Part shown: positions 25,194-28,588 of the stretch, piece after piece
Position numbering within the stretch: position 1 is the first letter of the stretch
Layout: each line of letters opens with the position of its first letter
Assembly (NCBI RefSeq): GCF_014697355.1
Contig: NZ_JACJRQ010000005.1
Span: forward strand, 124,001 to 188,000
Reading direction: 5' to 3'
DNA from: Nostoc calcicola FACHB-3891
GTDB taxonomy: Bacteria > Cyanobacteriota > Cyanobacteriia > Cyanobacteriales > Nostocaceae
DNA length: 64,000 nucleotides
The notes under the pieces: generated by a model
Seen by the model: only the letters and a program-made list of their open reading frames with translations
Databases searched by the model: none
Told to the model about the DNA's origin: nothing
Position numbers and translations under genes: made by a program

Positions 25194-26651
25194 TTATCCC
25201 ACCGCCTTCTGAACACCAACTAGTTCTACCTGCTGTGTCTCTGGCAACAAACGCTTCACGCCTTGCTTAACAAAATTTTGCAAAAAGCCAATTTGCTGAT
25301 TTTGTTGAAACACATTTTGCAAAGTTTGCCGCAACTTCTCGAAATTTAAACCAGTCCCAGAATCTACTGCTATTTCTTGCTGTTGGAAATATTCAACTAA
25401 ACTTAATCCTGCGACTCTGGTCAGATAAGCTGCACTTACTCCCTGCACTAAGCCACCAGCAACAAAGGTAACGGCATTACTTTTGAGAACAGTACTAATA
25501 GCCTTGGTAGAAAGTTCAACTAAACCGAGTTTTAGCATTAAACTTCCCATTGTTCCAGCTACGGTTTGCGCCTGTTCTAGGGAAAATTTCTGCTGATAGA
25601 TACTACCCAAATCCATAACCATCTGAGCATTAATGGCCGCAGTCGCCAAAATATCAAGGGCTGGTACTGGGTTAGCAAAGGCAGCAGCAGCAGCTATCCA
25701 CTGATATTGTTCAATAATTGGGGTGGCGCGATCGCATCTGATTCCATTCAGGCAGTTTTTCGCCTCAGCTTTCAACAACCCGGCTTTTCTCATGGTAGTT
25801 ACCCAAACTAGCCGTTGTTTTTGCTGTGCTAAAATTTCACTCAACTGCTGGGTTAACTGCTGAATATCTGGTGCTGGTTGTTCCATCCACTCTTGCACAG
25901 AACCATCAGCGTCATGCTTTCGTACTTTGACGGGGATGGGAGAAGCCGCAGTTGCAACTACATTTCCCTGCACCCGCTGTTTTAATGACAGCAAGACGCT
26001 ACCACGTTCATCGGCTAAATACTGGTCTTGTTTATTAAAAACCAGCATTGTAGCCTGATTTGCTGCTTTTAGCTGCTGTAAAGTTTGAAATTCTGAGTCT
26101 GTCAAATCACCGTTTGTCAAGAACAGCACAAAATCAGATTTTGCTACTTCTGCCAAAACAGATGCATCGGAATTCTCACCTGCTTCTCTAAAAAAAGGTG
26201 CTGTTTCTTGTAGAGAAACAAAATTTACTGCCTCTAGATTTTGCTCTAGCACTTGAATTAAAGTGCTTTTACCGACGGATTTTCCACCAGTCACAGCCAC
26301 TTTAATTTCTTGCCTGTCTAATTCCAACGACAATTGGGCAAGTTGTTCTCTGAGTGTTTCTAGTGCCTGATGGTTTTCTGCTTCTTCTGCTAGTTGGTTA
26401 ATTACAACTTCAGCAATAGAAATCGCACTTTCTACAGTAGCCCGATCTACAAGCATACTATCTAGCTGTTCTAAAGCGTCTTTCGGGCGATTTTGTTGGA
26501 ATAACCACAAACCACCGCCTACAGCTAAGGCACTCAATAAACTAAACTCACCCACCTGCATTATTGAATGATGCCAACTTTGTAACATCCACAGAGAAAA
26601 GGACAGTCCCAATCCTCCCACTAAAATTGGTCGCTGCAACTTCACAACCAT
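25194..26651 (-). CDS. DUF697 dynamin-like/GTPase membrane protein
   Basis: 485 residues. Two N-terminal hydrophobic helices (10-22, 37-51), then a GTPase domain with P-loop TGGKSVGKST (121-130), a hydrophobic strand FVLFLTNGDLTDSE (G3 region) and NKQD (G4). The C-terminal 180 residues are the DUF697 region: AAAAAFANPVPALDILATAA, with several hydrophobic helices, matching YcjF-like proteins. It resembles conserved cyanobacterial GTPases of unknown role, and membrane association is clear. The upstream ATG 26651 is acceptable. Confidence 0.8.
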   Translation of the reverse strand: MVVKLQRPILVGGLGLSFSLWMLQSWHHSIMQVGEFSLLSALAVGGGLWLFQQNRPKDALEQLDSMLVDRATVESAISIAEVVINQLAEEAENHQALETLREQLAQLSLELDRQEIKVAVTGGKSVGKSTLIQVLEQNLEAVNFVSLQETAPFFREAGENSDASVLAEVAKSDFVLFLTNGDLTDSEFQTLQQLKAANQATMLVFNKQDQYLADERGSVLLSLKQRVQGNVVATAASPIPVKVRKHDADGSVQEWMEQPAPDIQQLTQQLSEILAQQKQRLVWVTTMRKAGLLKAEAKNCLNGIRCDRATPIIEQYQWIAAAAAFANPVPALDILATAAINAQMVMDLGSIYQQKFSLEQAQTVAGTMGSLMLKLGLVELSTKAISTVLKSNAVTFVAGGLVQGVSAAYLTRVAGLSLVEYFQQQEIAVDSGTGLNFEKLRQTLQNVFQQNQQIGFLQNFVKQGVKRLLPETQQVELVGVQKAVG

Positions 26652-26693: not shown

Positions 26694-27176
26694 TTAAAAT
26701 CCTGCTTCTTGGAATTGAACAGGCGATCGAACACAATTTTCTTTACTTACAGATACTTGTGAGATTAACTCCCAAGCATCCCTATATTGTGCGGAACGAG
26801 GTTTACGCTGTCGTTTTTCAGCCTCAACAAGGTGTACTTCGCTTCCATAACCTATGAACACATCTATGGGAAAAACATAGAACAGGTCAAGTTTTTCTAT
26901 ATATGCCAGGGCAAAATCAAAGTCTGATAGCTGATATGCTTCTCGAACCATCAGCCGCCGATTTGTTTTGGTGCGGCGATTATCTACAACGTAATTGCCA
27001 GAAGCCCGATCGAACCATGCGTATTTGACTTGGATTTTTATTACAGTTCCCTCTACATCAAATGCTAGATCGTAAGGTAACCTATCACCAAAAGGTTTTA
27101 AAACTCCCCAACCACGCTTTAAAGCATGAAGAACAGCAGCTTGTTCTGCTATGTCTCCTCTAAGCTTTGTGTCCAT
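26694..27176 (-). CDS. I-Ssp6803I-like group I intron endonuclease
   Basis: 160 residues from ATG 27176, preferred over a 12-codon longer frame. It begins MDTKLRGDIAEQAAVLHALK and contains PYDLAFDVEGTVIKIQVKYA, the PD-(D/E)XK core with E11, D36, Q49 and K51. This is the rare homing-endonuclease family whose founder is encoded inside the tRNA-fMet intron of Synechocystis. Here the gene lies 91 bp outside the tRNA-fMet 3' end, beyond the tRNA terminator, and the intron itself carries no ORF. Catalytic residues appear intact, so the protein may still be active or may have taken another role. Confidence 0.85.
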   Translation of the reverse strand: MDTKLRGDIAEQAAVLHALKRGWGVLKPFGDRLPYDLAFDVEGTVIKIQVKYAWFDRASGNYVVDNRRTKTNRRLMVREAYQLSDFDFALAYIEKLDLFYVFPIDVFIGYGSEVHLVEAEKRQRKPRSAQYRDAWELISQVSVSKENCVRSPVQFQEAGF

Positions 27177-27212
27177 TACTGAGATCAAGATGAAGTAGCT
27201 GACAATCAGCAT

Positions 27213-27256
27213 AAAACAAAACCCTGCGATCTTTTAGGAAAACAGGGTTTTGTTTT
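27213..27256 (-). terminator. Terminator of tRNA-fMet gene
   Basis: 14-bp arms AAAACAAAACCCTG (27213-27226) and CAGGGTTTTGTTTT (27243-27256). T-rich end in the minus direction, 11 bp past the encoded CCA. Confidence 0.9.
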
Positions 27257-27267
27257 ATCTTTGAATT

Positions 27268-27588
27268 TGGTGGCGGGAAGTGGATTTGAACCACTGACCT
27301 TCGGGTTATGCTTACCAACTACAACTTTCGTTGCCCAGATTAACTGGTTTGTGGTCTGGACTGTCCCTTCACCCTCGGCGTTACCGTTAGGGTGTCTGCC
27401 TTCCAGTCTCTACACCTTCTCCACTTCTGGAGCTTGGTTCGGGATTACCGCGCTATTGGCTTCCCCGAGTTTGACAGATAAACGCACATAAGTTTCTTTA
27501 TGTGCCGCCCACAGCAAACTTAACTAATAAGCGTCTAGTTAACTTTGCCCGTTGAGCCCGACGAGCTACCAGGCTGCTCTATCCCGCG
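27268..27588 (-). tRNA. tRNA-fMet(CAU) split by a group I intron
   Basis: Exon 1 is 27555-27588 (starts CGCGGGATAGAGCAGCCTGG), exon 2 is 27268-27310 (CATAACCCGAAGG to CCA). Joined they give a 77-nt initiator tRNA with anticodon loop CTCATAA, an unpaired first base pair (C1 versus C), the GGG/CCC anticodon stem typical of initiators, T-loop TTCAAAT and an encoded CCA. The intron lies within the anticodon loop, immediately 5' of the anticodon. This is the position known from Synechocystis tRNA-fMet. Confidence 0.95.
27311..27554 (-). ncRNA. Group I intron (IC3-like) in tRNA-fMet
   Basis: 244 nt. The 5' exon ends in U and the intron ends in G, as group I splicing requires. Core elements are readable: P-like GGTAATCCCGAACCAAGC, R-like GTAGAGACTGGAAGGCAGAC and S-like AAGGGACAGTCCAGACC, each closely resembling the cyanobacterial tRNA-Leu intron core. 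There is no internal ORF, so it is the minimal form. Confidence 0.9.
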
Positions 27589-27634: not shown

Positions 27635-28588
27635 CTACAAAAACGATAATTCTCCAATGACTTCTAAACGCTTGTATTTTCCTAAGGTGACAAACTTTTC
27701 ACTGAGGCTTTCGGCGGCGCTGGGACTAATCCAACCCATTTGTTGGAGTAAGTGAATAGCAACGGCATGTTTTGCTCGTTTTGCCCCATCCATAACTTTA
27801 ATTGCTAATCCCATGCCTTCACCGAGTCTACCAATGCACTGCACTCCTTCGGCACCCGATTTGCTGACCAGTTCCCCTGGAGTTAAACGCATCAGTTCCG
27901 TATCAAATTCTCCATCTCCTGCTACCATTGCTGGGTGATGAGTCATGGCACGGACAATGCGCTCCATATCCAAGTTGGTACTAGAAGCTAGCAGGGCGTA
28001 TAAAGAGGCCATTTGACCGAGTTGCATCAAATAAGTCGGTGCGCCACAGTCATCATGGGCGCTAATAAATTCCTCTGCTGGCATTCGTAGCAATTCTGCT
28101 ACTTTGCCCACAATTAGCTGCTGTATTGGGTGTTTGCGTTCCAAGTAGTTGTTTAAAGGCCAATGGCGTTGCTGACAAACAGCTAGCATCCCCGCATGTT
28201 TACCAGAGCAATTGTATTCCAGAGGACTGCGTTTGCCTTCAGGAATTGGACACTGGAGTATAGTGGGGTCAAGATCCGCCCGCCAAAGGATGTTAAATAC
28301 CTGTCGGACTTGCTCTATTGTTCCTTTATGGGAACTTGTGATGATTGCTAAATCGCGATCGCTAAGGTCATAGCGTTCCAGTGTACCTGTAGTGGTGACT
28401 GCGAGTGCCTGAAATGGTTTGAGTGCTGAACGAATAAATGCAGCAGTTTCCGAGTTTCCGGCGACGGTTAAAACCCGTCCGCGTTCGTCGCATACAACAG
28501 CCTGGACTATATGCTTGGATTCAATGATACCTTCACGCAGCAACCGGACTTCCAGTGCTGTGGCTTGAGTTCGTTTTCCCATTGTCAT
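27635..28588 (-). CDS. Asparaginase family protein (PF06089 type)
   Basis: 317 residues. Matches the bacterial asparaginase family distinct from the classical AnsA/AnsB fold: EVRLLREGIIESKHIVQAVV, SALKPFQALAVTTTG, ITSSHKGTIEQVRQVF, NCSGKHAGMLAVC and SAHDDCGAPTYLMQLGQMAS. It would hydrolyse L-asparagine to aspartate and ammonia. Cytosolic, with no signal peptide. The start ATG 28588 is followed by a second ATG two codons on. It ends just upstream of the tRNA-fMet promoter. Confidence 0.9.
   Translation of the reverse strand: MTMGKRTQATALEVRLLREGIIESKHIVQAVVCDERGRVLTVAGNSETAAFIRSALKPFQALAVTTTGTLERYDLSDRDLAIITSSHKGTIEQVRQVFNILWRADLDPTILQCPIPEGKRSPLEYNCSGKHAGMLAVCQQRHWPLNNYLERKHPIQQLIVGKVAELLRMPAEEFISAHDDCGAPTYLMQLGQMASLYALLASSTNLDMERIVRAMTHHPAMVAGDGEFDTELMRLTPGELVSKSGAEGVQCIGRLGEGMGLAIKVMDGAKRAKHAVAIHLLQQMGWISPSAAESLSEKFVTLGKYKRLEVIGELSFL

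Follow-up and report, generated by a model that had tools for sequence, protein, structure and literature searches.

The endonuclease gene described here most likely escaped from a group I intron. In the window, a stretch of 64,000 nucleotides from Nostoc calcicola FACHB-3891, the tRNA-fMet gene is interrupted by a group I intron that holds no reading frame, and a free-standing gene for a homing endonuclease of the I-Ssp6803I family lies just behind it. We consider it probable (roughly 0.7) that these are the two halves, now apart, of a single homing element, in which a relocated intron ORF works with the intron in the manner of collaborative homing and the intron confers immunity.

On the minus strand, the window presents an asparaginase II gene, tRNA-fMet, the endonuclease gene and an slr1306-family gene, in that order (Table 1). 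The whole tRNA-fMet gene runs from 27588 to 27268, and the intron sits immediately before the anticodon, after the base on its 5′ side. The endonuclease insert occupies the space between the terminator and the slr1306 leader, which are joined in relatives without the insert, and the source genome contains one copy of the endonuclease.

Table 1. Features of the interrupted tRNA-fMet locus and its surroundings, in coordinates of the window.
Feature	Position	Strand	Basis
Asparaginase II family gene, upstream of the tRNA; synteny marker	27635-28588	minus	
tRNA-fMet exon 1, to the base before the anticodon	27555-27588	minus	sequence reading; uninterrupted tRNA-fMet of relatives
ORF-less group I intron, 244 nt	27311-27554	minus	Rfam Intron_gpI, relatives, fold
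Intron nt 14-96: probable relic of the endonuclease ORF 3′ end, then the 5′ strands of P2, P3 and P4	27459-27541	minus	
tRNA-fMet exon 2 with encoded CCA; anticodon CAT at 27310-27308	27268-27310	minus	sequence reading
Terminator-like hairpin between the tRNA and the endonuclease gene	27211-27258	minus	folding energy; relatives
Free-standing PD-(D/E)XK homing endonuclease gene, 160 aa, I-Ssp6803I family (ORF open from 27212)	26694-27176	minus	
3′ end of the free endonuclease gene, matching intron nt 14-96; last part a probable intron-derived tail	26704-26786	minus	
slr1306-family gene, downstream; other border of the endonuclease insert	25194-26651	minus	

The intron matches the Rfam model Intron_gpI at 27319-27539 of the minus strand over the full length of the model with 47 bits (E 6.9e-11), which is 3 bits below the gathering score of 50, so that a scan at the gathering threshold listed nothing. 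ARAGORN found no tRNA in the window, as expected for a tRNA-fMet gene that is split. In the genus, 13 other genomes carry a copy of the intron with 94-99% identity along its length, the exons and intron together fold with a z of -3.1, and sequence comparison places the group I core at the known anticodon-loop position of tRNA-fMet introns. The sequence and the Rfam match thus bear out what the sequence-only reading had proposed, namely that a 244-nt intron without an ORF splits tRNA-fMet directly 5′ of the anticodon. tRNA-fMet is essential, and the intron is presumably removed by splicing. For its helices we use the names P2, P3 and P4, following the Rfam alignment and what is generally known about group I introns. 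The hairpin behind the tRNA has a folding energy of -25.4 kcal/mol (z -6.9), which none of 200 shuffles equalled; it is absent from the list of a consensus terminator scan, and a similar hairpin is visible at the same place in the compared loci, both with and without an endonuclease.

The endonuclease frame is open from an ATG at 27212, which would give 172 residues. We consider the ATG at 27176, 91 nt past the tRNA, to be the likely start of a 160-residue protein, because the upstream ATG falls inside the terminator hairpin and because four intact homologues (L070, L154, L180 and L141) have a stop codon between the two starts, at residue 11 or 12 of the long frame. Numbered from this start, the catalytic residues E11, D36, Q49 and K51 (residues 23, 48, 61 and 63 of the long ORF) are found in 39 of 39 intact homologues. 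The protein matches PDDEXK_5 (E 2.3e-53), and its closest solved structure is that of I-Ssp6803I (2ost; E 9e-66 over 144 residues); an NCBIfam search at 1e-3 returned no family. The ORF and the 2ost match agree with the earlier observation of an intact homologue beyond the tRNA and its hairpin, and both the sequence and the catalytic E, D, Q and K assign the protein to the I-Ssp6803I/PDDEXK_5 family. Because its gene lies outside the intron, it is a member of this protein family but not an intron-encoded endonuclease.

Might an unrelated nuclease of the restriction type simply happen to adjoin the tRNA? What speaks for such an accident is nothing beyond a fold common to restriction enzymes, and we regard it as scarcely credible, given the degree of similarity to I-Ssp6803I, the segment common to the gene tail and the intron that is described below and, above all, the linkage, which refutes it. 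Each of the 38 intact free-standing copies that were examined has tRNA-fMet upstream on its own strand, at a distance of 56-136 nt in 29 and of 237-2083 nt in 9. The sequence-only reading had suggested mapping the homologues relative to tRNA-fMet and had named consistent absence of linkage as its refutation; the linkage stood for every intact free copy examined, although a distant branch of the family adjoins another tRNA gene instead, as discussed below.

The arrangement extends beyond the family to which the genome belongs. An intron together with a free enzyme gene was also found in Phormidium sp. LEGE 05292, Microseira wollei and Phormidium tanganyikae; in the last of these, the usual neighbour genes are missing from the locus. 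The single case of an enzyme gene adjacent to an uninterrupted tRNA-fMet that we found outside Cyanobacteria is that of Arsenicibacter rosenii (Bacteroidota; L147, 2859-3408), in which a related endonuclease gene, with an in-frame stop at residue 74, lies 69 nt downstream of an uninterrupted tRNA-Met(CAT). Relatives were absent from 44 candidate stretches of viral contigs, no match was found on plasmids, and 50,697 phage records yielded 14 distant relatives with 27-39% identity. Several loci have further peculiarities. In seven (L231, L235-L238, L240 and L241), 772-2083 nt of other sequence separate tRNA-fMet from the endonuclease gene. Two loci with a broken endonuclease, L068 (G005) and L081 (G026), share an insert behind the terminator that begins with the same first ~20 bases and is perhaps a small mobile element. 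At L055 (G091) and in G059:C116, from another family, two tandem copies of tRNA-fMet lie ~150 bp apart.

In which direction did the endonuclease gene move? Elsewhere, the gene lies inside the intron (G066, G093, where it is frame-shifted, G178, G210, G181 and two metagenome-assembled genomes that are assigned to Armatimonadetes and Deltaproteobacteria and are possibly misbinned), just behind the 5′ splice site and extending into P2 and beyond. We aligned the 3′ end of the free gene to the intron of the same locus in 38 loci, with 200 dinucleotide-preserving shuffles for each. First, the match in 30 of these loci was reached by at most 2 of the 200 shuffles, and 30 of the 38 alignments shared two neighbouring diagonals (25 on one, 5 on the other); control pieces of the same genes were significant in 4 of 114 tests, and the match was not significant in the other 8 loci, Phormidium tanganyikae among them. 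Second, on the fixed diagonal, the shared segment consists of two halves. Intron nt 14-51 are 48% identical to the last conserved codons of the gene (mean on other diagonals, 24%), which suggests that the intron once held the gene, and intron nt 52-96, which comprise P2, P3 and P4, are 48% identical to the gene tail (26% elsewhere), which points to a former position of the gene inside the intron. Each half has a z of 6.0 over the diagonals (30 loci), a value that is only descriptive because the 30 loci are related to each other. Third, in a genome of another family (G198, locus L243), an intron without an ORF has the start codon and first codons of the gene joined directly to the ORF's end, and this intron is evidently a deletion product.

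Because the free gene ends in intron-core sequence and the intron keeps the last codons of the gene, we infer that the gene most likely escaped from the tRNA-fMet intron. This had been one of the origins put forward in the sequence-only reading, and the shared segment favours it over the unfused ancestral arrangement that had been proposed beside it. The dN/dS of the free gene was 0.106 in the core and 0.600 in the tail, measured on copies preselected as intact, with 295 of 595 pairs retained by the dS filter; by this measure, the core is under purifying selection, and the looser evolution of the tail fits a leftover.

The opposite history would have the gene free-standing beside tRNA-fMet from the beginning, entering the intron later in Synechocystis and others, with the tail match being the result of a subsequent exchange. 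The endonuclease tree is compatible with such a history, and a distant branch of the family (~30% identity, ~230 residues) is free-standing directly behind an uninterrupted tRNA-Arg(UCU) in all 14 loci scanned (L019-L022, L024-L030, L167, L168 and L170). A 2014 review (PMC3984707) also takes phage work to favour an origin of intron-borne enzymes from free-standing ones. However, an additional exchange would be needed to place a group I core in the gene tail and the last codons of the gene in the intron, and the deletion product in G198 would be explained only if the gene had first entered that intron; we therefore consider this history improbable. The endonuclease tree was tried as a guide to direction and set aside: its base is not resolved, and neither the grouping of the copies outside the intron as one clade nor that of the in-intron copies was rejected (p-AU 0.37 and 0.42).

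If the enzyme did leave its intron, do the two still belong together? We searched 217 genomes of the family separately for the enzyme and for the intron alone, and then read the loci. The intron is present in 50 genomes (match below E 1e-50), and the remaining 167 were counted as lacking it; 15 further genomes gave weaker partial matches only (E 3e-11 to 8e-4), which we took to be other group I introns. Beside the intron, the endonuclease is intact in 35 genomes, broken in 9 (including G377, where the match begins at residue 21) and was not found in 6 (including G550, whose contig ends just behind the tRNA). No intact endonuclease was found in the 167 genomes that lack the intron; in 57 of these (19 with remnants, 38 without) the tRNA-fMet sequence itself was read, and for the others the count rests on the searches. 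The 19 genomes with remnants retain broken pieces of the endonuclease downstream of an uninterrupted tRNA-fMet, from directly behind the tRNA to ~2.2 kb off and, where slr1306 is on the contig, in the interval towards it. Thus, where any endonuclease sequence is present, the gene is intact in 35 of 44 loci with the intron and in 0 of 19 without it (Fisher p 1e-9). Independent pairs on the flank-gene tree agree: the state of the endonuclease tracked that of the intron in a mean of 8.4 of 12 pairs (median p 0.008) and, in a larger set, in 11.5 of 15 (median p 0.0005), with no pair in the opposite direction in either. The confinement of the intact enzyme to intron carriers is what would be expected if a working enzyme attacks the uninterrupted tRNA-fMet gene and the intron acts as a shield.

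Recent homing is not visible in these data, in that the distances of both intron and endonuclease follow those of the flanking genes (correlations 0.75-0.84), no surplus is shared by the two, and no co-conversion tract, which would appear as raised divergence, was seen in the flanks of 22 sister pairs differing in state, in 4 of which no alignment of the downstream side was obtained. A partial Mantel test gave no support for a transfer of the two parts together (r 0.09, with 838 of 5000 permutations as high). Collaborative homing, as proposed in the sequence-only reading, is consistent with the restriction of intact copies to intron carriers, but a recent joint transfer is not supported. We considered that the locus might be a frozen relic, inherited vertically and repeatedly lost, with an enzyme that has ceased to drive homing or whose activity is retained for something else. 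Both the agreement of the distances with the flanks and the missing tracts are in keeping with this idea, as are the 9 broken copies beside an intron and the 19 remnants without one. On the other hand, a relic would not be expected to show purifying selection on its core, its distribution is patchy, with 25 state changes on the flank tree, and the endonuclease of G015 groups with other genera and not with its own, to which the intron of G015 is nearest. Although we do not favour the relic, we regard it as a possibility to be kept in mind; vertical loss and occasional homing are compatible with each other, and the present pattern, as read from these comparisons, appears to be mostly one of inheritance with repeated loss and some exchange.

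Under the reading that we prefer, that of a homing element with its halves apart, the ancestor would have carried the endonuclease ORF within the tRNA-fMet intron, close to the 5′ end of the intron, where the ORF overlapped P2 to P4. On the way to this family, a copy of that ORF whose 3′ end was the P2-P3-P4 stretch of the intron would have settled behind the terminator of the tRNA, and the intronic copy would have been deleted, its last codons excepted. In a carrier, the site of the nuclease would be interrupted by the intron, which would make the carrier immune; when an intronless allele is cut, its repair would bring in a copy of the intron and, by way of the adjoining DNA, of the endonuclease gene. 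With the nuclease encoded outside, a cell that lost its intron while the nuclease still worked would be harmed, and the nuclease would have to die first. A free-standing endonuclease gene beside an ORF-less intron is the arrangement found in collaborative homing systems, and by this analogy the likely mode is collaborative homing, in which the intron would protect the cell against its own nuclease.

The intron of Synechocystis PCC 6803 tRNA-fMet is described in PMC1995217 as being 655 nt long with a 150-codon ORF, and PMC3073962 places the I-Ssp6803I ORF inside the intron, in P1, overlapping P1/P2 by 61 nt. Our locus shares with this system the enzyme family, the tRNA and the insertion point, and the exon junction is identical in relatives of the Synechocystis lineage: of 13 loci compared, 10 have the same 28 nt there, and the in-intron lineages f8, f9 and f54 belong to these 10. 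It differs in that the ORF lies outside the tRNA gene, behind a terminator. For F-CphI of cyanophage S-PM2, PMC6083498 describes collaborative homing by a free-standing enzyme encoded beside the intron-bearing gene, with the intron blocking self-cleavage. Our locus resembles this in having a free-standing homing endonuclease gene that adjoins an intron-bearing gene, whereas F-CphI belongs to another endonuclease family and to phage psbA and the present case concerns a bacterial chromosome and a tRNA gene, with a fossil of the exit of the enzyme. Gene 5.3 of phage T3 and the intronic I-TslI of phage PhiI are reportedly free-standing and intronic relatives aimed at one gene, and a free-standing enzyme and an intron are said to have joined later; the locus described here would represent the reverse step. 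In the ICP1 terminase locus, an endonuclease gene adjoins an intron-bearing gene, and the 2023 paper (PMC10448857) calls the origin of such loci unclear and suggests turnover to a new free-standing enzyme; in our case, by contrast, it would be the intron's own enzyme that was relocated. The 2014 review (PMC3984707) describes collaborative homing on the basis of two phages and sees in it a way for a free enzyme to enter an intron later. The direction here is most likely the opposite, out of the intron, and within a bacterial chromosome, and we found no earlier report of such a locus in a bacterial chromosome or tRNA gene in the open-licence PMC literature.

The branch linked to tRNA-Arg(UCU) invites a broader speculation. 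Within the genus (30 loci, L249-L278), tRNA-Arg(UCU) occurs with two alleles of the anticodon arm, the remaining tRNA being nearly the same, and each allele is accompanied by its own enzyme type (9 and 7 loci). One allele-B locus is an exception and carries only a scrap of the other enzyme type; 6 allele-A loci have no enzyme, and 7 more distant loci gave no match. Untabulated searches across the whole family were in line with this pairing. One tRNA-Arg-linked copy (L168, in G072:C32) lies among 18 tRNA genes within 3.3 kb. The endonuclease family could conceivably be a parasite of anticodon arms that resides beside tRNA genes, with immunity provided by the intron in tRNA-fMet or by a recoded arm in tRNA-Arg, so that the intron would be an antidote and the pair would resemble an addiction module; we put this forward as a doubtful idea. 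Should the enzyme be directed at the anticodon arm, recoding of that arm may serve tRNA-Arg in the way that the intron would serve tRNA-fMet.

How mobile introns and endonucleases join and part is an open question in the field. In the present case, a single enzyme family and a single intron occur in both arrangements at one site, and the probable direction, out of the intron, can be read from a sequence fossil. Because the enzyme now lies outside the intron, losses of the intron leave remnants behind, so that the death of the enzyme and the loss of the intron can be followed in the genomes of this cyanobacterial family. It appears that a selfish gene can separate from its intron while the two go on depending on each other.
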